DNA of 64,000 nt from Zingiber officinale (taxonomy: Eukaryota; Streptophyta; Magnoliopsida; Zingiberales; Zingiberaceae), in assembly GCF_018446385.1 (NCBI RefSeq), contig NC_056001.1, positions 10,968,672 to 11,032,671 of the forward strand, written 5' to 3'. This document shows, piece after piece, positions 7,087-60,566 of this stretch (position 1 is the stretch's first letter; each line of letters starts with the position of its first letter). Both the position numbers and the translations under genes were made by a program. The notes under the pieces are model-generated. The model did not search any database and was not told where the DNA came from. It was given only the letters and a program-made list of their open reading frames with translations.

Positions 7087-8073
7087 TGTTGGTCTAGCAG
7101 GACTAACAAGATAGGAGGGGTGAATTGTCTACAAAAAGAAAATACCCTCCTCATTCTTTCAACTCTAAAATAGCAACAATAATAAAATAAAATAACAGAA
7201 AAGAAGAGACAAGAAATTTAACTTGGTTATAACCTAGGTGGTTGTTAATCCAAGGTAGTTAAAAAGCTCCACTAGAACTGTCTCCTTCACTGTAGGTGGA
7301 GAAGTCTTTTACACACTAAGAAAGCTCTAAGAGTTGCTAGGAATTTAATACTGAGTTGAATGAATAATTCCTACCTCCAGGGGCCTTTATATAGCTCCTG
7401 GAAATCCTATCTCGAGTCTTGAGGGCGCCTCCAAAGGGGTTGAGGGCACCACCAAAGGGGTTGAGGGCACCTCCAAGGGGATGAGCGGATAAAACTTTAT
7501 CCGCTCGTCAACGGCCAAGTTGGCCAGGTCGAGGGTGCCCTCAAGGGCATTAAGGGTGCCCTCAAGGGCATTAAGGGTGCCCTCAAGGGCATTAAGGGTG
7601 CCTCCAAGGCTATTGAGGGCGCCCTCAATGCCATTAAGGGAGCCTTCAGCGTGCTGAAGTCGGAGGCGCTTCCAACAACTGTTGAGGGCGCCTCCAGCTG
7701 TCTTTCCAGTACTTCTTCCTCTCCTTTTCAGCTTCCGAAGTTCCATTTGATTGGGTGATTGCGACCAACCGAAATAGGGTCACCCGAACCTAATTTTCGA
7801 TCTTCTCCTCGAGCAGGCTTCTGCCCCAACTTCTCATCCCTCGAACGTCGTGCACGTTCTTCTCATCCACCGGTGTACTCTTCCGCAGCTCTTTTATCCT
7901 TCGGACGCACCGAGCCCATCGGCTCCCTTCCTGTGCCGTCCTTCTCGCTAGCTGCGTCTTCCACTCGACTTCCTGCGCTCCTAAGCTCCTGCACACTTAG
8001 ACACAGAGATCAAAACCAAACGGAACTCAACCTAACTTGGTTAATCACATCAAGACCACCACGGGATCCAACA
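7087..8073 (-). repeat. 5' LTR of element B1
   Basis: The 987-base LTR begins TGTTGG and ends CCAACA. On the minus strand it holds a TATATAAAGG box near 7388 and an array of 'ccctcaagggcattaagggtg' units (about 7545-7640). The primer-binding site abuts its inner end. Confidence 0.75.
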
Positions 8074-21400: not shown

Positions 21401-24400
21401 CTCATGGTGAATGTTGAGTTGTAGAGAGACTAAGCAATTTAAGAGGACGACATCTCTCTTTCTCATGTGAGCCATCTAGGACTGAGCTGGATTAAAGGGA
21501 AGGCTAAATCGGATAAGTTTCTTAAAGGGATCTCAATTTGACCAAATTTTTATTTGATTCCATCCATATTCACTTTCAATTTAACAAGATTTCAATGGAT
21601 TCAGATCAATTTTCAACTATTATCGAATGTATCTCCAGTTCTCTGTATCGATATCAACTTGTTTTGCCAATTGTAGACTCTAGCTCAATAAGGATAATGT
21701 AGTTTGACGAGGTTAGATATCTTGCAGATAACATTGTCACTAAGAGGGCAAGACTTTTCTAATTAACTCTAGAAAGTAGACATTGATCTTTTGGCTAGAT
21801 AGAACTACTACAGCAGGCAAGACTTTTGAAGCCCACAATCAGAGGGAAAGAACAAGCAATTAAAGTCTGATGGTATATCTATAGATATGAGCAAGACATA
21901 TCACTTTGATAATATGGAGTCCAGTATATGGGCAAAAAAGGTTATACTAAACATGCTTACATGTCACAAATATGAGGCGATATGAGTTATACAGATCTTG
22001 CACAAGCAATATGAAGCTTAATGTATGTGGCAAAAAGACTAATATGAGCGGTATAGATGTAAATGCAATACAAATTCAAAGTACCTAATATAACCAATGA
22101 TCATGCCTATCATGCATGCACGATAAACATAAAATAGAATTGCTAGAAAAATTAATTTGGAAGTGAATCTTAATTGTCCCAAACTAATTATATGTGTAAG
22201 CATTAGCTGAATAATGATTTAGAGAAATTATGAATAAGCACATGAATTCTGACCATAAATAAATAAATAAGCAAATGAATTTAAATTCACGTTTCCAAGA
22301 TTCAAATACTAGTTCCTTTGAAAGTGTAATTTTCATCATCAACAGCATCAACCTACATCAGTCCCGTCTATTTGTGATCAGCTACATTTGGATTGCCCTT
22401 CTACTGAATTCTGCAAGGCTATATTACTAGTAATATTCAGTCTTAAAATAATATGTAATTACATTTAAATTTTTTCTTTGGTCTCCTGCTATACCTTTGA
22501 TTTTCAACGACTCAACCATAATTTTACATTGAGAAATTTTTAAAAAAAAAACTGTTTATCAATATTTAAGGAAGATGAAGAGCTCAGATCATTACGTTAC
22601 AAAGAGCAAATAAACACGTATATTGGAAACAATTACATACTAAATAAAACTAGTATTATCTTTCATTTATAATATAAATATAGTTTCAACAGGTCAAATT
22701 TTAAGATATTTAACATTTCAGACCTTTTTATTGAAACTTGAGTAAGGTTAGAAAATATTATAACAGTGACAATCTAGTCATATGCATGCAGAATATGAAA
22801 TCATAAAAGTTAATTGTTTTAACCTTATTGGGGCGATTATAGAGTGGCGAATGTATTTTAAGATATTTGAGAGTGGTGGTGGATCAAGTTATTTTCTTGC
22901 AAAATTGTAGGGACAACAAGGACAAACTAATGTCAACTGATATTGTGTATCAACACGAGTTGACGCCAATACAATATTGTTCAATGCTAGGATGAAAACC
23001 AGTATCAAAAGTGAGGTTTAAACCCTCGCTTGATGAACTTGTTGGAGAAACACTGAGTTGCAATGATAAAAAAGTTCTGAACTTGGTATATAGAGGGCCA
23101 TCATCATGACATGGTTGCTTAATTCCATATGAATAATAAGTTGAAACTATAGGTTACTAGAAACTGCCAAAGGGATTTGTTAGATGATGTACATGAGTTT
23201 CCCAATAGTCCAAGATACCTCAGTCATTTATAAGATTGAAACTAAGACATGAAATACTCAGCAACGTATTCTCTCAATTATTGTTACTACAATTTAATAA
23301 CCAATCTATGGTAAAAAGATGGATCTACATTGAAACTTAAATTTCATTACACATGAAGATACTCAAGTGATTCTTCAAGAGAAAAAAGATTGCATCTTCA
23401 AGTTATTGGCAAATGGATTTCAGTTTGATCAGGCCCTTGTGCAAATTCTTGAAAGGAAAAATTGTCAGCTTTAAATGAAACATTCTCCGTTGTCTAGATA
23501 TATGATGTCCAAAGCTCAACTTGTGATTCAGACATGTTTTAAACTTGGCAACAGGAGGGCATAAGAGTTGGAATGAAATCTTATGATAGCTCATCAAAAT
23601 CAACTAGCTGTGAAGAACTTTGGTATACTTTCTGCAAGAAGTCTTATACTAGAGAAATAGACTTTCATTTTCATGAAAAAGGACCTAGTGTTAGACTGAA
23701 TTGAAAAATACACAAGTTGAGAAAGCAAAGATGACCCTCATGAATCCTCCAATCAAGACAGAGACCCAATGGGTAGGATAGTTAATTCTGGAGTGATGAT
23801 GCATGGCTCATAAAACAATCCCTTGATGATTGGAAAACCTACAGTGGTTGTTGGTTAAAGTGATATCCATCATGACTCTCACTGAATGCCTAATATTATG
23901 ACGAACCTTTTTTTCATTCACAATCTTACAAAAAAACTAAATTGCCTTGTGATTTGTCTCTACTAAGTGTGTTCTTCTTCAGGATCAAACTTCTAGGTGG
24001 AAGTTGGCTTGCTAGGTAAAGGCACAACCCCTACTGGCTACTACCTTGTGAAGTCTAACAGCTCCAAGAATATATGGTTGGTTCATGCTTGTTCTTCACC
24101 TAATTCCTTTAGATGTCCTCCATCCACAAATAAGATATTGTTTGAGCAATAGACTTGAGCGGTATTCTATGCTCCAGACTATGTTCCCTTGTTTTTTTAG
24201 GAATATTGATGTTATTGTTTTTCCATAGCTTAGTTTGTGTGGATCCCTTTAAGAGAAGGAGACTCCTAAGAATTAAGTATTGATTTTTTGGAATTTTTCA
24301 TGAGCCATCTTGTGTGAAAACCCTTAAGATATTAGGTCTCCGAGAAAAAAACAAATGACATCTCCTTATTGTCACTCAATTATTCCTATAGAAGGCATTC

Positions 24401-29395: not shown

Positions 29396-30292
29396 TCAAT
29401 GAAGAAACAGGTCGTAGGAATCAGAAATCTTTGGCAGGGAGCTGCTGATGTTATCCGTATTGATGCCATTGGAACCAGGGAAACTGAGTTCCCACACAGG
29501 TTCATCCATCCAAAACGCTTTGCTCATCTCTGAGATCATCTGATCATCTCCATTAGCGTTGCTGGTCGATGTTTGGTTCTGCAGTTGGGAAGCCACCGGA
29601 GCATTTGGCTCAGTCGAGTGTTTGCGGGAGTTGGAAGACCGGCGGCAGCTCTCCTGGACTATGCTGCTCAAGTACCCCGACCTGGTGTCGTCGCAAAAGA
29701 GGAAGTTATCAGAAATCTCTACGTCATTGCTCTTAAACTCCGCCGCAGTGCGACGGCTCGGGGCGGAGATGCTATGGCGATGGTTCTGGATTGAGAAGGC
29801 GCTGTGGTCGGGGGGTTGAACGACGGGCAGAGCACCACCGGTGAGGTGTCCGTGGCGCGGCGGCTGCGGGATGTTGAAGCTTTGGGAATGGAAATGAGGG
29901 AGGACAGAGTACTGGAATGCGGTGATGGGAGTCTCGGAGTAGATGAAGTTGGTCCTCGCTTGACTGCCCTTCATGGCGAGTGCTGCCCTGTCGTAGGCCA
30001 GAGCAGCTTCTTGGGCAGTATCGAACGTCCCCAGCCAATGCCTCTCCTTGGTCGTTGGGTCCCTTATCTCCGCAGCGTATCGCCCCCATGGCCGCCTCCT
30101 CACCCCGAGGAATCTCCCCGGCTCAGCCGGCTTCCTCCTTCCTCTCCTCTCGCCGGAGGATGGAGAAGACGATGAGGACGACGATGAGAAAGAATTCTTA
30201 GCCCGGGAGAAGTCCATCGTGGAAGAACTAGTGTTAACATTGCACCCTTGATCCTTCTCTGTTGCATTGTCGATGGACTTGGAGGAAGACAT
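29396..30292 (-). CDS. AP2/ERF transcription factor, group VIIIb (FZP/BD1/PUCHI-like), 298 aa
   Basis: Intronless, as most ERF genes are. A Ser-rich N-terminus precedes a complete AP2/ERF DNA-binding domain at about residues 60-118 ([20 protein letters not shown]...[32 protein letters not shown]). It has the ERF-type Ala/Asp pair (AAEIRDP, GTFDTA) and would bind GCC-box DNA in the nucleus. Residues 205-216 ([12 protein letters not shown]) match the SGYLSSIVP motif I recall from FZP/BD1 and PUCHI, factors that set spikelet or floral meristem identity and lateral-root primordium form; LEP/ERF086 is the nearest alternative. The C-terminus is acidic and Ser-rich ([12 protein letters not shown]), a possible activation region. 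No damage is seen. The family call is firm; the exact orthology is less so. Confidence 0.88.
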
Positions 30293-34316: not shown

Positions 34317-35551
34317 TGTTGGATCGAAAAGACGCTAGAGGGAGGTGAATAGCGTTCATCGTTTTTTTTTAAAAAAAAATGAGAATATGCAACAGAAAAG
34401 AAACACGAAAGTACAAACGCTAACACAAGTAATTTTTATTCGAAGAAGTTTTCGTTCTTCGAACTCCGGAGCAACCTTTCGGTGTCGTAGAAGCCTTTTC
34501 GGTGCAGCGCGCAAATATGAAAGTCGTAGCAGATGTTATTCTAAAGCTATTGGTCGAAGGCTTTTATACAGGCTTATTTCGGGGGCTAGGACTGTTGCTA
34601 ACATGGTGGTCTCTCGTTGAAACTTGATCTGTCAAGTTTATCCACCTCTGGGTGTCTGGACCGTTGACATTGGTTCAATCAATCGTCGTGCTCCAACTCA
34701 GTTTTTGGATGACTTTTCTAGTCTGGGTGCTTGGACCAACTCCGGGTGCCCGGGTGCTTAGCTAGGCACCTACCCGGCAAAGCTAGTCCGGACGCCCAGA
34801 CCAACTCCGGGTGCCTAAATCCCTTCCGGGTGCCGAAATCCCTTCCGGGTGCCTAGATCCCTTCCGGGCGCCCGGACACTCTTTTTCAGTCACTTATTTC
34901 TTGCAAAAAAGAGTTAGTCCAGGCATAAAAATTATCTTGCAAAATAGAGTTAGCACAATAAGAATATGATTAAATTATTATAGGTGTAGCGGAGGCCGGT
35001 TTGAGGTGGGTGAATTGCTGTAAACAAAAAAAATAAAATATACCCTCCTCGTACTTTCAACTCAATTAGTGCAATAGTGATAAAATAGTAAAGCAATAAA
35101 AACTAAATACAGAAAGACAGAGAAGATCGGGATTTAACCTGGTTACAACTAAGACGGTTGTTAATCCAGGGCGATGAAGAGCTCAGTAGAAAAATTCTCC
35201 TTCTCTGAAGGCGGAGAAGCCTTTTACATTTTGGAAGCTTAGAACTATTGCTAGGAATGGCTACACAATGATTGCTTGAGTTGTTGTTTCTTTCCTAGCT
35301 CCAGGGGCCTTTATATAGGTCCTGGAAATCTTATCCCGAGAGTCCAAGGCGCCTCCAACAAGGTTCAAGGCGCCTCCAGCTCAGTCAGCGGATAAAACTT
35401 TATTTGCAGCGCAAACGGTCAAACTGACCTAGCTCAAGGCGCCTTAAACAAGTCTTTCAAGGCGCCTTCAATGTTGAAGGCGCCTTGAATATGTTTAAGG
35501 CGCCCTCAATATGTTTAAGGCGCCTTCAATATATTTAAGGCACCTTCATGG

Positions 35552-37073
35552 TGTTAGGACCAAAAGTAGCTAGAGGGGGGGGTGAATAGCTCGTCGCGTT
35601 CGCTCGGTGCGCTTTGTGGCTTGGCGTTGCTTGTTTCTTCAAGGATATGCAGCGGAAAATACAGAAACAAATACAACCACGCTAACACTAGGATTTTACT
35701 TGGTATCCACCTCACAAGAGGTGACTAATCCAAGGATCCACACCAACGCACACACCCTCCACTAAATAAACTCTCCTTTATGATAACTACCAAAGGCGGA
35801 GAAGCCCTACAACACTCAATACAAGAAGAAAGGGAAAGAGTACAAGAAATAGAAGCTTACAAGCTTACAATGAGTGCAAACCCTAACCCTAGTTTCTTCT
35901 TCTTGCAATAGATCCGCCTCTTGACTTGGAAAGCCTCCAAGATCCTTCAAGAACTGGCGATCACGTGCTTGTAGAGAGCTGTGGAGAAGCTGGCGAGGAG
36001 CTGAGATGAGATCGTGAAGATATGCCGAAGACCACGCTCGCCTGCGGCTTTAAACACGACGCAACGGTCGGATCCCAATCGATTCAAATGTTCTGAATCG
36101 ATCGGGGAGGCTTTGGATCGATCCACGGATCGATCCAGAGCGCCTCTGTGCTCTGGAAATAGCGTCTGGATCGATCCACGGATCGATCCAGCGCTTGTCG
36201 CGCGAAGCAGCATCGTCCCGATCGATCGGGACCTCTAGATCGATCCACGGATCGATCCAGAAGCTTTCTGTTCGCTGAAGAGTCCGGATCGATCCACCGA
36301 TCGATCCGAGCTCTGATTCGATCGATCTCCTTGATTTTGCCCAAAACCAAGTCCCAAACCTCCCTAACCAACATCCGGTCAACCTTGACCTGTTGGTACA
36401 TCATGCCTAGCATCTGGTCACTCCCTTGACCTGCCAGGACTCCCCACCAAGTGTCCGGTCAATCCCTTTGACCCACTTGGACTTTTTCTCGTCGTGCCAA
36501 GTATCCGGTCACTCCCTTGACCTACTTGGACTCCCACCAGATGTCTGGTCAACCTTGACCCATCTGGATTTCCTTATGCCAAGTATCCAGTCAATCCTTT
36601 GACCTACTTGGACTTCCCAACACCAGATGTCCGATCATCCTTGATCCATCTGGATTTCCCTTGCCTGGCTTCACTCACCAGGACTTTCACCTAGCTTCAC
36701 TCACTAGGGTTTCCATCTGCCTAGCTTCACTCACTAGGACTTTCACCTGGCTTCACTCACCAGGATTTCCTTCTGCCTAGCTTCACTCACTAGGACTTTC
36801 ACCTGGCTTCACTCACCAGGATTTCCTTCTGCCTAGCTTCACTCACCAGGACTTTCACCTGGCTTCACTCACCAGGATTTCCTTCTGCCTAGCTTCACTC
36901 ACTAGGACTTTCACCTGGCTTCACTCACCAGGACTTTCCAGTCAAGTATCCGGTCACTCTTGACCTACTTGACTCTACTTCAATCACTATCTTATTGTCA
37001 AACATCTAAACCCAAACCAAGACTCAGCTTGGTTAACCAGGTCAACCTTGACCTAAGGGATGTTGCACCAACA
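35552..37073 (-). repeat. 3' LTR of element C
   Basis: Nearly identical to 41456-43003 except in the palindrome array (about 36075-36325), where it is about 26 bases shorter and rearranged. Confidence 0.88.
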
Positions 37074-39532
37074 ATCTCCCCCTTTTTGATGTTTGACAAT
37101 ACCACAATAACACTTACAATACCACATGTAAGTTAGGCTAATCCCATAGCCTCATTCTTCATGCCACTAGGTAATGAAAGCATAAGTTAAGCTCTTCATT
37201 CTCCTCCTAAGAGGGCAAACTCCCTCTAGGTAATGAAAGCCTAACTTACTTCCTTTCACAAGCCCTTTCATTCTCCCCCTATTGGCACACATCAATCCCC
37301 TATTGATAAAACACATCAACCCATCTTTGGACACACATCAACCGATGCTCCAATTTTGGGCACACTTCAACAACTCCATTTGTTGAAAACTCTCCCCCTG
37401 AAAAGTTGCTCATCGTTGTTCACAACATCACTCGTTGTGATCAACACGATACTGAAGGTCCCATACCCTTCATTATTCTTACCCCTACATTCTCCCCCAA
37501 TGTAGGCAAATGCCCATCCTTGAGCATTATCCAATGAAATCACTGAACAATGAGGATATACACTCCTCATTCAGGTTCAACCCATGCTCAACCTTGAGCA
37601 TATTCTTTAAAGAAGGTTAACCACCTTCCAAGGTTCATGAAAAATAATTTTCATGCCTTTAAAGAGTCCCTCCCCCTAAAGACATGGTGGTAACTTCTGT
37701 CATTGCACCAACAATGACTTGGAATCCCTAAACCTTTAGGAAACCCAGATTTAGAAGTTTTGAGGTTCAAATGTTCAAAATTTGAAACAAACCTCAACCT
37801 AAACTTCAACTTAGCCTTCCTTTACCATTCCATCCTTGTTTTCAACACGAAAACACCCTTTTTATGTATACAAATGTATTTTAAGGGTTTGGAATGAGTA
37901 CCTAGACTAAAAATAGGTTCAAAGTGCTGAAATCAGGCTTTCCCAGCCAAAATCAGCAACTTGGATCGATTGGAGTTGGGTTCCAATCGATTGAACCTGT
38001 CTGAATCGATCCACTGATCGATTCAAACTACCTGGATCGATCGGCTGATCGATCCAGCGAGCTTCTGGTCGCAGGAAATGCCTTCTGAATCGATCCACGG
38101 ATCGATTCAGACTACCCTGGATCGATCGACTGATCGATCCAGCGAGCTACTGCTCGCGAGAACTGCCTTCTGAATCGATCCATGGATCGATTCAGGCACT
38201 CCAATCGATCCATGCATCGATCGGAGCTCTGATAGTTGCTGAAATTCCATTTCAGTCAACTTCAGAAACCCTTAGAAAATTCTACAAAAATCCAAAAATT
38301 ATGAAATTTCGTGTAGACATTGTTTAGGGCATATATTATCAAGGAAAAATAGTTTTCTATGAAAATACATCATCTTTTCAAAGATTGACACAAACTTGAA
38401 AACTTGCAAAAACTTTAGTGTTTTCTTCAAGTTTGTGTCTAACTATTCAATGGTGATTACTATCAAAAGATAGCCTTCACCAAGGTTTTCCAAAATCATT
38501 TTGAAAACTTTTTAAAAACCAATATCCCACCATGTTCCTTGGGCATAATGCACATGACTTGTACATTAGCTTTCCCAATGATGGGAAAACACATATCTAT
38601 GTGTTTTGATGAAACTAAAACTCAAAAGAATGCACTAAATCAACATCTTGAGTTTTGTTCATCATCCTAACATCTCACTTGTATCTAATGTGCACTAAAA
38701 TACATACAAGTCATCTTATAGGTCTTTGTGAGATGTAGATTTTGGTTTTGCCCTAATCTAGGGATCATGCATATCTATCTAGGCATTTTGGAGATATTAG
38801 ACACCCACCTAGGATGTCACTTGTTAATAAGTGTTGTTAAATGCCTTTTGTCCTTAATTACAAAGAATTAAACTTAATGCATGATAATGTTATGACATAC
38901 ATCAAAAAGAAATAATTTTCAAAAGAAAATATCCTATAATTACATGATGTATGAATGTCATGACATGGTATTTTTGGATTTTTCATAATAAAACATGAAC
39001 GCAAAAATAGACATGATGTCATGACATATGATGGGCAAACAATCATGGCAAGATTTAGCATAAATAAAATATACCTAGATTAACTATCTAAGTATCCTTA
39101 AAACCTTAGCTAAACTTACAACTTAAACCTAGATTGCCCTAAAGTGCTTCAAGAAAATGTCAAAGCCTAAATTGGCATTTCTAATTCCCTTGATTAATTT
39201 ATGCCAGTCGAAATTAAGCATATCCTCAAATGTTGGCATATTTCATTTTTCCACAAGAGTAGCACTTCAACATAAGGCTTCAATTTCCTTTAATTTTCTA
39301 AGAACATACCAAAATCCCAACTTGGTAGCTCTTATGAATTTCCCAATATGTGCCTTTTAATATTAAAATCAAATTTTCACCACTAGGCACATTTTACTCT
39401 TTCAAGGAGTAAATAATAGTTCCATTTCATTTTCAAAGGTTAACAAAAACCTTGAAAATGCTCCTTGAGTGTCAATTTCCTCAAAGTTGGGTTAACTACC
39501 CTTCTAATTGGAGTTGACACTCTCTAACCCAT
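37074..39532 (-). other. Non-coding 3' interior of element C
   Basis: About 2.5 kb between gag and the 3' LTR with no long frame on either strand. It contains a second set of TCGATCGA-type palindromes (37965-38235) like those in the LTR. The pol genes of an autonomous relative would be expected here or before it. Confidence 0.7.
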
Positions 39533-41380
39533 TTATGGGATAGAGAAGATGCTCCTAGGAACCCAACACCTATTGGTGCTCCTTGGATGCTCTAGGTACT
39601 CACTAGGGATAACTTCCCTAGATACCTTCCTAGTGACCTTGTTGGGCTTCTTAGAAGCCTTGGTCACATTTTCTAGGTCAACCCTAGGGATAGCCTCCCT
39701 TGTGACCTTGTTAGTGACTTTCTTAGACTTCTTAGAAGTCTTAGTCACTTTGGTTGCAAAAATACTCTTAGGGATGACTTCCCTAGTATTCTTGACTTGA
39801 CCATTAAACCTAGGGTTTGTTCCATAACTATATGGAACCCTATGATAACTAGGCACATCCTTCTTAGCCTTTGGTTTGTATCCCAAACCTCTATGGCTAT
39901 TTGATGGCTTTGACTTTCCTAGCCCTAGGTTTTGCTCATTCTGCCCTTTTAGGATATTTTCCATCCTTTTTAGGGTCTTTTCCATTTTATCAAGTCTTGA
40001 TCTCAAGACTTGATTTTCTATCATTAAATCCTTAGAATTTGGTTTTTCATTAAGTCCATGAGCATTTTGGTTTCTAGGCTTGTATCTAAAATCCTTAGAG
40101 TTATTGCCTAGACTTTTACCTACATTCCTAACCCTAGGAGTGATAGTCTTAGCATGTAGGGCCACATGCTTTTCCTTAAAGCCCTCATGCTTTCTATTCT
40201 TATGGTAAATTGCATTAAAATGATAAAAATTTGAACTATCATGCTTTTTACCATTTTGCAAAGGAATAGGCTCAATGAAAGTTACCTTCCTTTTTACCTT
40301 GGAGGCTCCCCCTTGACTAGTGCCTCCTTGAGCCTTGACCTTCTTCTTCCCCTTGGGGCATTGACTACGATAATGCCCCTTTTGATTGCAAGAGAAACAT
40401 ATAATATGCTCCTTGCTCTTCTTTGTGTTGGGGATGGTCTCCTTGGGCTTCACCTTGCCCTTTTGTGCCACTTGGCCCTTCTTCTTGGCTAATTTAGGGC
40501 ACTTGCTCTTGTAGTGCCCATGTTCCCTACATTCAAAGCATATAATATGATTTTTATTATTAATTGAAACATTTATACCTTTGCTTGTAGGGGTGGCATC
40601 TTTTTCTTTGGATCCGGAGGTAGAAGCTTCCTCTTGATCGGACCTTGATTCTCCTCCATTTGATTTTTCTTGACTTGTGGAGGTAGAAGTTTCTTCCTCC
40701 TCTTCTTCTCTTGACCCGGATGTAGAAGCTTCTCCTTCTTCTTGATCCGGTGTCACCAAGGATTGCTCCCCCTCAATCCTAGAGGTGGAGGCTTCATCAT
40801 CTTGAATATGAAACAAGGAGTATGCTCCCTCCTTGTTCCCTTCGTTGCATTCCCTTGAGGATGAAGCTTCTTGGATTTCCTCTTCTTCGGAGGTTGAGCA
40901 TCTCCCAACCTCGGAGTCCTCCTCTTGGTCTTGCTCCAAAGAGTCACCCTCTTTAGATACTTCTTGATTCGGTACAGTGGAGGGGATCTCTTCATGAAGC
41001 TTGGCCAATTTGCTCCATAAATCCTTTGCATCTTCAAATTCTCCAATTTTGCAAAGGATGGTGCTTGGCAATAGATTGACCAAAAGCTTGGTCACTTTGT
41101 TATTGGCCTCGCACCTTTGGACTAGCTCCGGGCTCCATTTGCTTTTCTTTAGAACTTTGCCCTTGGAATTTGTTGGAGCTTCGAAGCCTTCCGTAAGAGC
41201 AAACCATTGCTCTATCTCCATCATAAGAAAGTTTTCGATTCTTGATTTCCAAGAATCGAAGCTCGTGGAGGTGTATGGTGGAGCCACCCTTGTGTCAAAT
41301 CCAAGTCCATCTTGGAATTGCATCTTGAAGTTGAGCTTGATAAAGTCTTGAACTTGAAGAATTTGCTCCAACTTCTTCAC
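39533..41380 (-). CDS. Gag of element C, 615 aa, uninterrupted
   Basis: Retroelement structural protein. The N-terminal part (about 30-140) has the copia gag fold signature: PPYTSTSFDSWKSRIENFL, then LLVNLLPSTIL..IGEFEDAKDLWSKL. A long acidic Ser/Glu-rich low-complexity linker (about 140-260) follows, then two CCHC zinc knuckles, CFECREHGHYKSKC and CFSCNQKGHYRSQC, for RNA binding. After these come a basic region, a coiled-coil segment (LRSRLDKMEKTLKRMENIL) and a tail ending CWVPRSIF, like the linker that precedes protease in copia polyproteins. Here the frame simply ends. The frame is whole, in keeping with the young LTRs. Confidence 0.85.
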   Translation of the reverse strand: MKKLEQILQVQDFIKLNFKMQFQDGLGFDTRVAPPYTSTSFDSWKSRIENFLMMEIEQWFALTEGFEAPTNSKGKVLKKSKWSPELVQRCEANNKVTKLLVNLLPSTILCKIGEFEDAKDLWSKLAKLHEEIPSTVPNQEVSKEGDSLEQDQEEDSEVGRCSTSEEEEIQEASSSRECNEGNKEGAYSLFHIQDDEASTSRIEGEQSLVTPDQEEGEASTSGSREEEEEETSTSTSQEKSNGGESRSDQEEASTSGSKEKDATPTSKGINVSINNKNHIICFECREHGHYKSKCPKLAKKKGQVAQKGKVKPKETIPNTKKSKEHIICFSCNQKGHYRSQCPKGKKKVKAQGGTSQGGASKVKRKVTFIEPIPLQNGKKHDSSNFYHFNAIYHKNRKHEGFKEKHVALHAKTITPRVRNVGKSLGNNSKDFRYKPRNQNAHGLNEKPNSKDLMIENQVLRSRLDKMEKTLKRMENILKGQNEQNLGLGKSKPSNSHRGLGYKPKAKKDVPSYHRVPYSYGTNPRFNGQVKNTREVIPKSIFATKVTKTSKKSKKVTNKVTREAIPRVDLENVTKASKKPNKVTRKVSREVIPSEYLEHPRSTNRCWVPRSIFSIP

Positions 41381-41455: not shown

Positions 41456-43003
41456 TGTTAGGACCAAAAGTAGCTAGAGGGGGGGGTGAATAGCTCGTCG
41501 CGTTCGCTCGGTGCGCTTCGTGGCTTGGCGTTGCTTGTTTCTTCAAGGATATGCAGCGGAAAATACAGAAACAAATACAACCACGCTAACACTAGGATTT
41601 TACTTGGTATCCACCTCACAAGAGGTGACTAATCCAAGGATCCACACCAACGCACACACCCTCCACTAAATAAACTCTCCTTTATGATAACTACCAAAGG
41701 CGGAGAAGCCCTACAACACTCAATACAAGAAAAAAGGGAAAGAGTACAAGAAATAGAAGCTTACAAGCTTACAATGAGTGCAAACCCTAACCCTAGTTTC
41801 TTCTTCTTGCAATAGATCCGCCTCTTGACTTGGAAAGCCTCCAAGATCCTTCAAGAACTGGCGATCACGTGCTTGTAGAAAGCTGTGGAGAAGCTGGCGA
41901 GGAGCTGAGATGAGATCGTGAAGATATGCCGAAGACCACGCTCGCCTGCGGCTTTAAACACGACGCAACGGTCGGATCCCAATCGATTCAAATGTTCTGA
42001 ATCGATCGGGGAGGCTTTGGATCGATCCACGGATCGATCCAGAGCGCCTCTGTGCTCTGGAAATAGCGTCTGGATCGATCCACGGATCGATCCAGCGCTT
42101 GTCGCGCGAAGCAGCATCGTCCCGATCGATCGGCAGATCGATCGGGACCTCTGGATCGATCCACGGATCGATCCAGAAGCTTTCTGTTCGCTGGGAAGAG
42201 TCTGGATCGATCCACTGATCGATCCAGAGCCTGGATCGATCCACGGATCGATCCAGCACTTGATTTTTGCCCAAAACCAAGTCCCAAACCTCCCTAACCA
42301 ACATCCGGTCAACCTTGACCTGTTGGTACATCATGCCTAGCATCTGGTCACTCCCTTGACCTGCCAGGACTCCCCACCAAGTGTCCGGTCAATCCCTTTG
42401 ACCCACTTGGACTTTTTCTCGTCGTGCCAAGTATCCGGTCACTCCCTTGACCTACTTGGACTCCCACCAGATGTCTGGTCAACCTTGACCCATCTGGATT
42501 TCCTTATGCCAAGTATCCAGTCAATCCTTTGACCTACTTGGACTTCCCAACACCAGATGTCCGATCATCCTTGATCCATCTGGATTTCCCTTGCCTGGCT
42601 TCACTCACCAGGACTTTCACCTAGCTTCACTCACTAGGGTTTCCATCTGCCTAGCTTCACTCACTAGGACTTTCACCTGGCTTCACTCACCAGGATTTCC
42701 TTCTGCCTAGCTTCACTCACTAGGACTTTCACCTGGCTTCACTCACCAGGATTTCCTTCTGCCTAGCTTCACTCACCAGGACTTTCACCTGGCTTCACTC
42801 ACCAGGATTTCCTTCTGCCTAGCTTCACTCACTAGGACTTTCACCTGGCTTCACTCACCAGGACTTTCCAGTCAAGTATCCGGTCACTCTTGACCTACTT
42901 GACTCTACTTCAATCACTATCTTATTGTCAAACATCTAAACCCAAACCAAGACTCAGCTTGGTTAACCAGGTCAACCTTGACCTAAGGGATGTTGCACCA
43001 ACA
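41456..43003 (-). repeat. 5' LTR of element C
   Basis: TGTTAGG...CCAACA. From left to right it holds the C-rich motif near the primer site, a palindrome array (about 41980-42260), a two-tier hairpin array (about 42290-42590) and ten short cttcactca hairpins (about 42594-42868). Confidence 0.88.
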
Positions 43004-44282
43004 CAAGGTTCCTGCTACAGTAATTTCAGCCTCTTTTGTCTCCTTTTCTTCTTCGCTTTGGCTTCCGAAACTCCGTTCTTTTGGATGATTGCGGCCAACC
43101 GAAATAGGACTCACCCGAAGCCAATTCCCGGCCTTCTCCTCGAGCAGCCTTCCGTCCTAGCTTAACGTCCCTCGAACGCCGCGCACGCTCTTCACGTCCA
43201 CCGGAGTACTCTTCCGCAGCTCTCTCGTCCTTCGGACGCACCGAGCCCGTCGGCTCCCTTCCCGTGCCGTCTTTCTCGCTAGCTACGTCTTCCGCTCAAC
43301 TTCCTGTGCTCCTAAGCTCCTGCACACTCAAACACAGGGATCAAACACAAAGCAGGACCTAACCAACTTGGTTGATCACATCAAAACACCACGGGGTCCA
43401 ACAATTATGACTTAGATCTTATCCTCCAAACCAGGATTTAGTAAGGGTCTTAATTTATGTTTCTGAAATAGACCTAAATTGAACTAACGCTTACTGTCCC
43501 CTCAACCGGGACGCGCCCTTACTTAGTCACTATCTTCCAGTGACTTACCTCTACTTACCTATCAAATATCTGGTCATTTAGAACTGTTTGGACTTTCTCT
43601 GACCTTGCTTAGTATCTGACCAAGCTGATCTACTAAGACTTGCCTACAACACTGAGTTAGCACAATATATAAAAAATGATAAAAAAAAAATAGTATTAGC
43701 ATTATTAATAATTCATTGATCTGGTCGACTGAGCGCGGTCGACCAGAAACTAGTTGGTCACTTATTACTTAGGGTTACCTCCCTCTAGGGTTGCCTAATT
43801 TTACTCAGTAGGACTTTCATTGTCTGGCTTTACTCATCAGGACTTTCACCACCTCACCTAATTTCACTCACCAGGACTTCCACTACCTAGCTTCACCCAC
43901 AAAGGCTCGGGTTCACTCACCAGAACTTCAACTACCTACCTTCATTCACTAGGGCTCGACTTCACTCACCAGGACTACTACCTAGCTCCACTCACTAAGG
44001 CTGGACTTTACTCATAAGGACTTCCACTATCTAGCTTCACTCACTAGGGTCTGACTTCACTCACCACGACTTTCTCTTGCCTAACCTCCAATTAAGACTA
44101 GTCACTCAATAGACTTCTCACCTGCATATCCTTCGATTAGGACTTACCCTTGCTAGTCATCTAGTCCTGACTATACTTCTCTCTTCCAAACATCAAGTCT
44201 TGTTTGAATCAACCATTAGTCAAACTGACCAAACTTAGGTATATTATCAAAATCAAAATCTTAGAAGTCGATTGCACCAACA

Positions 44283-48700: not shown

Positions 48701-49682
48701 TGTTGGAATCCCAAATTATTTTTGATGTAATCAACTAAGTTAGGTCAGGTCCTGTTTTGGTTTAATCTCTGTGTCTAAGTGTGCAGGAGGTTAATTAGGA
48801 GCACAAGAAGTCGAGCGGAAGATGCGGCTAGCGAGAATGACGGTACAGGAGAGAGCCGATGGACTCGGTGCGTCCAAGGGACGAGGTGTCGCAGAAGAGT
48901 ACACCGGTGGACGAAAAGAACGGACGCAACGTTCGAGGGACAAGAAGCCGGAAAGGAAGACTGCTCGAGGAGAAAATCGGAAATTAGGTTCAGGTGAGCT
49001 CTATTTCGATTGGCCGCAATCACCTAGGCGATCAGAGCAGCAGGAGAACGAAAGGAGCTGGAGGCGCCCTCAACAAGATGTTGAAAGCGACTCCGAAGCG
49101 AACCAGCGCCTCCGTAGCCTTCAGGCAGAGGGCGCCCTCCATAAGCATGGAGGGCGCCCTCCATAGCATTGAGGGCGCCCTCCATAGCATTGAGGGCGCC
49201 CTCCATAGCATTGAGGGCTATGGAGGGCACCCTCCATGCCTATTGAGAGTGCCCTCGATCTGGTCAAAGTGGTTGTTCACAGTGGATAAAATTTTATCCG
49301 TACCGCCTCGCTGGAGGCACCCTCTATACTCTTGGGAGGCGCCCTCAAGTTATAGATAGAATTTTCAGGAGCTATAAAAAGATCTCTGGAGTTAGGAAAT
49401 AATCAATCAACTCAAGCATTCAATTCCTGGCAATAGTCTGAGCGTTCAAAGATTGTAAGAGACTTCTCCGCCTACACGAAGGAGTTTTTCTAGTGATGTC
49501 ATTGTCTTAGATTAACAACCACCCTAGTTGTAACCAAATAAAATTCTGAGTCTCTTCTTTCAGTTCTTTTGTTGTTTATTTTTATGTTGTTGCTACTAAT
49601 CTGAGTCCAAAGTTCGAGAAAGGTCTTGATTTATTTTTCAGGCTATTCAACCCCCCTTCTAGTCGGTTTACCCAGACCTACA
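48701..49682 (+). repeat. 5' LTR of element B2
   Basis: It contains GAGGGCGCCCTC palindromes in 22-base tandem units (49130-49220), a TATAAAAAG box at 49374, and the 'ctattcaaccccccttctag' type motif near its inner end. Confidence 0.85.
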
Positions 49683-51678: not shown

Positions 51679-52606
51679 TATTGGAATCCCAGTATGATAG
51701 ATCCTGTTTTAGTTTGATCTTTGTGTCTAAGTGTGCAGAAGCTTAGGAGTATAGGAAGTCGAGCGGAAGACGCGGCTAGCAAGAAAGACGGCATAGGAGA
51801 GAGCCGACGGGCTCGGTGCGTCCGAGGGACGAGGTGCTACGGAAGAGTACACCGGTGGACGAGAAGAACGGATACGACGTTCAAGGGACGAGAAGCTGAG
51901 GAGGAAGGCTGCTCGAGGAGAATGTTGGAAATTGGGTTCGAGTGAGTCCTATTTCGATTGGTCGCAATCACCCAGGCGATCGGAGCAGCAGGAGACCGAA
52001 AGGAGCTGGAGAACACTGCTGGAGGCACCCTCAACAAAGTGTTGAAGGCGCCTCCGAACTAAACCAGCACCTCCGCAGCCTTCAGGCGGAGGGTGCCCTC
52101 CATAAGCATGGAGGGCGCCCTCCATAGCATTGAGGGCGCCCTCCATAGCATTGAGGGCATCTTCCATAGTATTGAGGGCGCCCTCGACCTAGCCAAAGTG
52201 ATCATTCGCAGCGGATAAAGTTTTATCCGTGCAACCTCGCTGGAGGCACCCTCCATACCCTTGGGAGGCGCCCTCAAGCTATAGATAGAATTTTCAGGAG
52301 CTATAAAAAGGCCTCTGGAGGTAGGAAATAATCAATCAACTCAAGCATTTAATTCCTAGCAATAGTCTAAGGGTTCAAAGATTGTAAGAGGCTTCTCCGT
52401 CTACACGAAAGAGTTTTTCTAGTGTTGTCATTGTCTTGGATTAACAACCACCCCGGTTGTAACCAAGTAAAATTCTGAGTCTTTTCTTTCAGTTCTTTTA
52501 TTATTTATTTTTATGCTATTGTTACTAATCTGAGTCCAAAGTTTGAGAAAGGTCTTAATTTATCAAACTATTTAACCCTCTTTTAATCGGCCTATCCGTA
52601 CCTACA
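51679..52606 (+). repeat. 3' LTR of element B2
   Basis: Matches the 5' LTR in order, with fewer GGCGCC units (52090-52185). The purine tract abuts its start. Confidence 0.85.
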
Positions 52607-58161: not shown

Positions 58162-60058
58162 TGTCAGGACCGATGATCGCGGCTAGAGAGGGGGGTGTGA
58201 ATAGACGCCCCAAATTCTTCGCTTCTTCCTACGATTAGGGTTAGCGCAGCGGAAATAAAAAGAATAGAAACGAAAAAGGAGAAGCAAACCTCAACACGAA
58301 GATGTAACGAGGTTCGGAGATGATACTCCTACTCCTCGGCGTGTCCGTAAGGTGGACGAGCCCTATCAATCCGTCGGTGGATGAGTCCCCGGAGAACCGG
58401 CTAATAAATACTCCTTGTGGGTGGAGAAACCTCGCCACAATATCTTTGCAACAGCAATAAGGAGTACAACAAAAGAGAAAGCAAACTAGAACAATCGAAA
58501 TGTAAAATGCTTTCCTTGCCTTCTCGTTGTCGACTGGAATCCTGAAGCGACAACTTCTCGGATCCAAGCTCAGCTAGAAAACCAACAGGAAGCTCACGCG
58601 AAGCTTCAAGAACAAGGAGCTCAACAAAGCTCAGGCAGTAGGAACCAGAAGTAGAAGAAGAAGAAGAAGAGCTCCCAACCCTTTTTAACGCGAAGAAGAC
58701 ACAGAAACTAGTCGTTGCTACGCGGTTAGATGTGGACCGATCAGCTTCATCCCGATCGGTTCATATGGGTCCCGACGGACCGATCAGGCCCCGATCGGTC
58801 ATGGTGACCGATCAGGTCCTTCCCCGATCGGTCCCATGACCGATCGTGGCCTTTCTCCTTCCGATCATCTCCTTCGATCGCTTCCGATCGGTCCGCAAAC
58901 CGATCGTGAACTTCACCGTATGCTCGATCGATCACCGATCGGTCTCCATCCGATCGAGATAACACACGAAGCTCATCAGGTCACCGATCGGTCACCGCAC
59001 CGATCCAGATACTCAGTATCACCGATCGATCCATCGATCGATCCAGCTTGGTTTCGCCCAAACCAAGTCCCAAGCCTTCCAAACCAACATCCGATCAACC
59101 TTGACTGTTGGTACATCATGCTTAGCATCCGGTCCACCCTTGACCTGCTAAGACTCCCCACCAAGTGTCCAACAATCCTTTGACCCACTTGGACTTTTCT
59201 CTTCGTGTCAAGCATCCGATCACCCCTTGACCTACTTGACCTTCTCAACACCGATGTCCGATCACCCTTGATCCATCCGGATTTTCCCGGCTTCACTCAC
59301 GGGACTTTCACCTAGCTTCACTCACTAGAGTTTTCACCGGCTTCACTCGATTTTCCAACTGCCCGCTTCACTCACCGGGACTTTCCCACCGCCTCTGGCT
59401 TCACTCACCAGACTTTCCAACCGCCTGCTTCACTCACCAGTCTTGTCCTGGCTTCACTCACTGGACTTTCCACATCCGGTCCAGAGAACGAGCCCCGAGC
59501 CCTCTCTGAGTCCCGAGAACGAGCCACCGAGCCCTCTCCGATTTCCATCCGGCCGAGAACGAGCTCCCGAGCCCTCTCGAACGTCCCGAGAACGAGCTAC
59601 CGAGCCCTCTCCGACTTCCCATGTGCCAGGCTTCCATACTTAGACTTCTCCGTGCCAAGTCTCCATACTTGGACTTTTCCCGTGTCAAGCTCCCTGCTTG
59701 GACTTTTCACCATGCCAAACTCCCTGCTTGGACTTTTCCCATGCCAAGCTCCCTGCTTGGACTTTTCCCGTGCCAAGCTCCCTGCTTGGACTTTTCCGAG
59801 TCAGGTCAACTCACCTCGGGTCAACCAGGTCAACCTTGACCACGGGTTGCACCCACAATCTCCCAAGCTTGTTCTCGTCAAACATCAAAATACAACTCGA
59901 GTCAAGTCAACTCGAGTCTGGTCAACCAGGTCAACCTTGACCTAAGGTTGCACCAACAATCTCCCATCATGTTCTCGTCAAACATCAAAATACAACTCGA
60001 GTCAGGTCAACTCGAGTCTGGTCAACTAGGTCAACCTTGACCTAAGGTTGCACCAACA
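58162..60058 (-). repeat. 3' LTR of element D (long form)
   Basis: TGTCAGG...CCAACA. Holds GACCGATCGGTC-type palindromes (58735-59045), cttcactca hairpins (59284-59465), a roughly 40-base minisatellite (59478-59620), CCAAGC/GCTTGG hairpins (59625-59795) and a 100-base triplication at the purine-tract end (59831-60058). Confidence 0.7.
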
Positions 60059-60566
60059 ATCTCCCCCTTTTTGATGTTTGACAAAACCCATAATCAAACT
60101 CATAATCAAGTTAGGTTAACCCGATAACCTAACTTAGGTTTTCTAATGTTCTTCCCTGAACATTCTCTATTCTCCTCAAACCTACACTCTCCCCCTTTTT
60201 GACACACATCAAAAAGAGTGAATCAAGGTCAAGAGTTTCTTTCTAATGAAAGTCTCATACCTTTCATTGAAACTCTTAATTTCCCCCTTGATACTAAGGT
60301 CAACAATTAACTTAGTGATAATCCCATATCACTCAAGTCTTTAGAGTAAAAACTCCCCCTAAAAGTCAACTCCCCCTAAAGGTCAACTCCCCCTTGACCA
60401 TTGCACCAATAATGTCTTGGAGAGTTTCAACCCTTTAGAAATCCAAGACACCACTTCCATAGCTGCAATTTCAGACAAACAGTCAAAATTCACTGGATCG
60501 GTCCAGTGACCGATCCAGCATCCCCTGGATCGGTCCTAGTGACCGATCCACTCTTTCCTGGACCGA

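Follow-up and report, generated by a model that had tools for sequence, protein, structure and literature searches.

Coupled changes in the arms of U3 hairpins of a gag-only, Sirevirus-type LTR retrotransposon in ginger

The arms of hairpins in the U3 region of a ginger (Zingiber officinale) LTR retrotransposon change together at orthologous positions along the tree of its genomic copies, and their pairing is kept while the letters drift. The hairpins were analysed in a stretch of 64,000 nucleotides from contig NC_056001.1 (the window), in which an earlier note had described an array of two-tier hairpins with compensatory arm changes; both the array arms and the matched changes are confirmed here. 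The array is best explained as a palindrome-rich cis-region in U3 of a gag-only Sirevirus-type element, and we lean, with rather more belief than doubt, towards the reading that pairing of the U3 arms is retained at orthologous positions and that paired copies propagate since U3 acts folded. Copies with pairing arms would then be those that propagate, and U3 would act as a folded single strand at one step or another; candidates are the U3 at the 3' end of genomic RNA and the cDNA during copying. Alternatively, U3 may serve as a cis-regulatory palindrome region. The results suggest that pairing of the arms matters in some of the hairpins. Hairpins are numbered U1 to U18, and hairpin U3 is always so called, to keep it apart from the U3 region of the LTR.

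The element is read on the minus strand, and its features are listed in Table 1. The five bases flanking it on either side are CATGG and CAAGG, with one difference, and a primer site (TGGTATCAGAGC) is present in the minus-strand element. Gag was the only open reading frame of at least 150 aa found between the LTRs, and pol, which is expected in a Sirevirus, was not among the frames. A Sirevirus gag is expected to be large, with a CCHC knuckle followed by a coiled coil; the ginger gag has 615 aa and a zinc knuckle, and a putative coiled coil was assessed by eye. Among the 71 best-scored copies of 137,865 candidates, a gag frame of 606-641 aa was present in all 71 and was free of stops in 62, and these intact frames would mean that the copies are young or that Gag is selected. 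Plant non-autonomous LTR elements whose LTRs flank a gag-only open reading frame are known as TR-GAG elements; the ginger element shares this arrangement with them and differs from them in its Sirevirus signature motifs.

These motifs comprise polypurine tract (PPT) octamers, an attachment site and an inverted repeat at the LTR junction. The terminal octamer (plus-strand reading CTCCCCCT) lies 2 bases from the LTR end, and the four octamers upstream of the 3' LTR are found at 37076, 37273, 37392 and 37670, with further ones in gag at 40306 and 40766 and none on the opposite element strand. The AT/TG attachment site reads AGGGGGAG-AT-TGTTGG on the minus strand, and the LTR arm of the junction inverted repeat sits 63 bp inside the LTR. 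A Sirevirus would further have a TATA box halfway along the LTR, following the repeats; of five TATA-like words tried, the sole match was a minus-strand TTTAAA at 36049, past the hairpins. According to the available text of PMC2829016, Sireviruses are marked by a PPT octamer immediately before the 3' LTR, by identical PPTs (four on average), by an AT/TG attachment site and by a junction inverted repeat with its left arm beside the PPT, which averages 28 bp in length and lies on average 28 bp into the LTR. The ginger element thus resembles Sireviruses in its octamer, its AT/TG site and its junction inverted repeat, although this repeat, at 18 bases, is shorter and reaches deeper into the LTR than the averages given in that text. 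Because these published marks are combined with gag alone, we class the element as a gag-only derivative of the Sirevirus type (Ty1/copia) and do not file it as a Sirevirus. The junction inverted repeat (36993-37010/37084-37101) also aids lineage identification.

Table 1. Features of the element and of its hairpin array (positions in the window)
Feature	Position	Strand	Details
3' LTR	35552..37073	minus	97.7% identity with 5' LTR over 1548 aligned columns (self-comparison)
Third hairpin type, GGATCGATCC-loop-GGATCGATCC palindromes	36074..36314		adjoins two-tier array
U1 two-tier hairpin	36368..36396		outer CCAACA/TGTTGG, inner GGTCA/TGACC, TCC bulge
U2 two-tier hairpin	36406..36438		outer CCTAGCA/TGCCAGG
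U3 two-tier hairpin	36447..36480		outer CCAAGTG/CACTTGG
U4 two-tier hairpin	36497..36529		outer CCAAGTA/TACTTGG
U5 two-tier hairpin	36537..36567		outer CCAGATG/CATCTGG
U6 two-tier hairpin	36579..36611		outer CCAAGTA/TACTTGG, inner AGTCA/TGACC
U7 two-tier hairpin	36623..36653		outer CCAGATG/CATCTGG, inner GATCA/TGATC
Ten short hairpins, CCT[G/A]G-CTTCACTCA-C[C/T]AGG	36664..36932		56-base double unit
U18 two-tier hairpin	36941..36973		GTCAAGTA/TACTTGAC, inner GGTCA/TGACC
Junction inverted repeat, LTR arm	36993..37010		94% complementary to outer arm, 18 bases
Terminal PPT octamer AGGGGGAG	37076-37083	minus	2 bases from LTR end at 37073
Junction inverted repeat, outer arm	37084..37101	minus	adjoins PPT octamer
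Gag-only ORF, 615 aa, zinc knuckle	39533..41380	minus	PF00098 E=5.6e-6
5' LTR, same element as 3' LTR at 35552	41456..43003	minus	self-comparison, ends read
Second array copy, 5' LTR	42290..42910		0 mismatches in 621 bases against 36360-36980

The array is made up of seven two-tier hairpins, an outlier, ten short hairpins and, beside these, a GATCGATC-type block. All the arms that the earlier note had named (those of U1, U3, U4, U5, U7 and U18) are present, and the 5' LTR proved to contain an exact repetition, 42290-42910 being identical to 36360-36980; the list of units had passed over the imperfect U2 and U6, and the CTTAGCA/TGCTAAG arms placed in the first unit of element D belong to its second unit (59121). 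With the next pair included, the outer arms of U1 are ACCAACA/TGTTGGT. The outer arms of U2 have one A·C mismatch on the plus strand, which is U·G in minus-strand RNA, and the inner arms of U6 likewise have one A·C mismatch on the plus strand. U4-U5 and U6-U7 are a tandem duplication of 86 bases. The core pattern CCNNNNNTCCGGTCAN{3,8}TGACCNNNNNGG was matched 41,122 times genome-wide, and its reverse was matched 0 times.

The short hairpins are tandem duplications too, and nine of the ten in the window are fully paired, the tenth being CCTAG/CCAGG; across 100 LTRs, position 4 was paired in 518 of 604 units (G-C 312, A-T 199, rest other), and 117 distinct arm pairs were recorded. In the third type, the window element has CGATC..GATCG, and numerous other loci have CGGTC..GACCG. 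The free position of this type is mostly paired as well (A-T in 321 and G-C in 345 cases, with G·T in 30 and A·C in 20); the search pattern left no other core position free, and the count includes some overlapping loci. The CGG-CCG core, of which a Sirevirus repeat is expected to show at least eight copies, is absent from two of the three unit types. A single LTR thus carries three or more dissimilar kinds of hairpin, a mixture that speaks for shape.

Palindromic units were also seen outside the array. A fourth hairpin type (CCAAGCTCCCTGCTTGG) occurs in tandem with similar variants in element D at 59655-59789, and at 59797-60065 of the same element the LTR end and the PPT-side arm are repeated 2.7 times in 100-base units, duplicating most of the LTR/PPT junction. 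Tandem units of 20-21 bases in other repeats (7532-7648, 35459-35548, 49128-49218 and 52089-52185) hold palindromes, GAGGGCGCCCTC and AAGGCGCCTT among them, and palindrome arrays thus exist in other repeats of the window as well. A degenerate array of CTTCACTCA-type units at 43863-44072 adjoins the element and is perhaps an old LTR relic. Elsewhere in the window, an open reading frame of 298 aa (29396-30292, minus strand) putatively encodes an AP2/ERF transcription factor-like protein, as judged by eye.

The genome searched comprised 3,090,333,446 bases in 211 contigs with both haplotypes, and the genome counts therefore include allelic copies. The LTR/PPT junction was found at 21,826 places with at most 3 mismatches. 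A total of 172 loci were collected, of which seven were omitted for overlap with the window or with other loci. Of the 165 loci used, 100 were fetched through the junction, whatever array they carried; an exact hairpin U3 unit supplied 40, of which 20 were short pieces, while similarity to element D supplied 20 and similarity to the window array 5. Since 40 of the 165 were picked via the exact unit, the test of hairpin U3 is biased. Together with three window copies, 150 sequences gave a matched block of at least 110 bases, and 140 distinct LTR pieces were aligned, some of which may be alleles of a single insertion. U4 was masked in 27 of the 140 rows, where orthologous and paralogous units had mixed in the first alignment. 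A home-made R-scape-style test was employed, with a FastTree tree, an APC-corrected G statistic and 400 simulations; in its null the parsimony substitutions are re-placed at random columns of the same base, and rate differences between sites are unmodelled. E-values refer to the 48 pairs proposed for four orthologous units (U1-U4).

At E<0.05, 4 of the 48 pairs covary, one in each unit: o2 of U2 (1e-5), o6 of U1 (0.006), o1 of U4 (0.020) and o2 of hairpin U3 (0.048), whereas no pair covaries in the control registers, eight slid and six cross-unit. The paired changes at several independent positions that the earlier note had read from the letters thus stand above a phylogeny-aware null. With a tree built from non-stem columns, the pairs of U2, U1 and U4 still pass and that of hairpin U3 fails; when E is taken over all 16,290 column pairs, only o2 of U2 passes, and structure pairs hold ranks 0, 1, 3, 8, 15 and 22. 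Changes at partner columns fell on the same branch 37 times against 3.0 expected under independence, while non-partner combinations of the same columns were 2.5-fold above expectation; permuted partners averaged 7.0 and reached 18 at most in 2000 permutations, and slid registers gave 8-12. The co-changing branches are few for each covarying pair (about 1-4). Genome-wide, pair o2 of U2 (C/T with A/G) is paired in 8,793 of 9,065 cases (97.0%), with C·A in 159 and T·G in 113.

The paired outer-arm changes are CCTAGCA to CTTAGCA, ACCAACA to ACCAATA and CCAAGTG to CTAAGTG. Among the 100 LTRs anchored by the junction, these derived arms are confined to the slots of U2, U1 and hairpin U3 respectively, slots being assigned from the order and the preceding unit (in 5 CTTAGCA cases, where no earlier unit was matched, from the order alone). 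They therefore seem to have arisen in place, and duplication of units, one of two findings that had been named as undoing the claim, is ruled out as the whole explanation for U1 to hairpin U3. It is not rejected for U4, since the derived arm TCAAGTA was found in later slots too. The U4-U7 block and the short hairpins being tandem duplications, differences among those units alone prove little.

Pairing was also examined without regard to the tree. In 339 loosely anchored units, taken from 100 LTRs fetched by the PPT/LTR junction with the array ignored, on average 6.29 of 7 outer pairs were formed, whereas re-dealing the right arms five times gave 3.82-3.96; such units were present in 87 of these LTRs and absent from 13. 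The array is predicted to fold better than 20 of 20 dinucleotide shuffles both as minus-strand RNA (z = -5.9) and as plus-strand DNA (z = -11.0). A search of the 64 kb window with Rfam 15 at the gathering score gave 0 matches.

Intermediates were counted to learn which strand folds, since folding of the sense RNA would make G·U commoner than A·C among single changes. The ratio of G·U to A·C was 19:8 on internal and 100:63 on terminal branches (p=0.4; 140 sequences, U4 included). A preference for G·U of 13:1 on internal branches, seen in the first 120 sequences for U1 to hairpin U3, was dropped, as the larger set showed 19:8 and no difference from terminal branches. Genome counts of G·U against A·C were 7,846 to 4,783 and 159 to 113, with inherited copies counted, and the same pair in the short hairpins of 100 LTRs leaned the opposite way (A·C 8, G·T 17 on the plus strand). 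In non-stem columns T to C exceeds A to G, and the lean to G·U may therefore be partly mutational.

Where on the tree the changes fall bears on their cause. Double changes that keep pairing made up 15 of 50 departures on internal branches and 16 of 250 on terminal branches (Fisher p=1.3e-5), a tally from which a few double changes to a wobble state were left out. The non-stem-column tree gave 20 of 49 and 32 of 297 (1.8e-6), and over 20 bootstrap trees an average of 11.4 double changes fell on internal branches and 23.7 on terminal ones, a contrast weaker than in the main tree. The internal excess fits pairing kept in propagating lineages and lost in decaying copies, and it equally fits arm copying in retrotransposition. 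As for rates, the ratio of internal to terminal changes was 0.28 for inner arms, 0.69 for loops and 0.55 for spacers (p=0.0005 for inner arms against the other two). Outer arms were not slower than loops and spacers within the array (p=0.17), and became so once the upstream flank was added to the comparison (p=0.004). A one-sided 3-base TCC bulge lies on the same side in nearly all aligned units; its letters are without special constraint (p=0.41), and insertions there were possibly lost with low-occupancy columns.

The main rival to retained pairing is template switching between the arms, in which mutation alone would suffice: a polymerase or reverse transcriptase pauses in a hairpin and copies the other arm, and no function is needed. 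In the available text of PMC8794818, coupled arm changes of this kind keep hairpins paired in RNA genes under DNA replication. The coupled changes in ginger are alike, and coupling without clear slowing, as found for the outer arms within the array, is also what template switching predicts; 16 double changes fall on terminal branches as well, and third-type loops occur in both orientations (CACG 110/CGTG 5; TGTG 19/CACA 12). Unlike what is expected of switching between strands, however, loop inversion is nearly absent from two of the three ginger types (short hairpins 604:0, two-tier hairpins 294:1, in 100 LTRs). These counts bear on the between-strand form only, since switching within a strand inverts no loops. 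The same restriction holds for the bulge, which keeps to one side where copying from arm to arm would often erase or duplicate it. The inner arms are constrained, and by our reasoning unbiased copying should not slow them. On this evidence we regard template switching as a tentative, somewhat unlikely account. The claim of selection for folding is accordingly upheld as far as coupling above the null goes, and is not separated from arm-to-arm switching of the sort described in PMC8794818.

A stronger form of the preferred reading holds that U3 is selected for shape and not for sequence, as a modular row of stems with three unit types and compensatory change, lying in the 3' portion of genomic RNA or in single-stranded cDNA; we think this doubtful.

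The units may instead be double-stranded sites for dimeric transcription factors, their dyad symmetry representing two half-sites. The inner GGTCA/TGACC arms are indeed the most constrained columns, and they carry TTGACC, which we take to be W-box-like, in inverted pairs. Cis-regulation has also been suggested for palindromic Sirevirus LTR repeats (PMC2829016, available text). The outer arms, however, swap letters pairwise, which is unexpected for a fixed binding specificity, and in U7 TGATC replaces TGACC with the pairing intact. Fixed dyads explain the conserved inner arms and not the paired drift of the outer ones, and we judge this account to be improbable.

A last idea, raised by the earlier note, is that the array serves in RNA recognition or packaging, so that an autonomous partner's proteins can copy the gag-only elements; a gag-only frame was indeed found in all 71 best-scored copies of 137,865 candidates, and U3 belongs to the 3' end of the genomic RNA of any LTR element. 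We hold this to be very improbable, since palindrome arrays lie in a similar LTR part of gag + pol Sireviruses (PMC2829016, available text) and so are not tied to copying in trans, since three unlike unit types in the same LTR argue for shape or cis-regulation and against a single recognised motif, and since no partner element was identified here, where 150 of 120,718 RVT_2 candidates were scored.

Palindrome arrays in Sirevirus LTRs are already known. In the available text of PMC2829016 (Bousios et al. 2010) they are described as repeated motifs (RMs), which are numerous, symmetric and placed in the upper LTR half; the ginger repeats are likewise symmetric and lie in that half after the PPT/LTR junction, with the CGGTC..GACCG form of the third type matching the CGG-CCG core of several RMs. 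The two-tier hairpins with their conserved 3-base bulge and the CCTGG-CTTCACTCA-CCAGG hairpins differ from these RMs in having no CGG-CCG core. The array begins about 100 bp into the LTR in ginger and 200-400 bp into it in Sireviruses. The table in that text gives one consensus motif for each element, commonly more than 85% identical, whereas the ginger arms differ within an LTR and stay paired. New here are the two further unit types and the coupled evolution of arms at orthologous positions. No report of coupled arm evolution in Sirevirus LTR arrays was found in the literature covered, from which subscription journals are mostly absent.

In maize, palindromes of the Sirevirus cis-region have been linked with small RNAs (Bousios et al. 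2016, as cited in the available text of PMC10760457), and a conflict between needed structure and silencing has been proposed (PMC10760457). The ginger array is like the maize case in that palindromic motifs are clustered within Copia LTRs and are predicted to fold strongly; it differs in species and motifs, and is known from DNA sequence alone. The same text asks what makes elements retain structures through which they become open to silencing.

Sirevirus arrays have so far been read as cis-regulatory sites and small-RNA hotspots, and the coupled changes point at pairing itself. If U3 were indeed selected for its shape, it would be a structural RNA module aiding the copying of gag-only elements or shielding their RNA. 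The 21,826 junctions, found with at most 3 mismatches in one two-haplotype genome, offer an unusually large set for telling selection from template switching.
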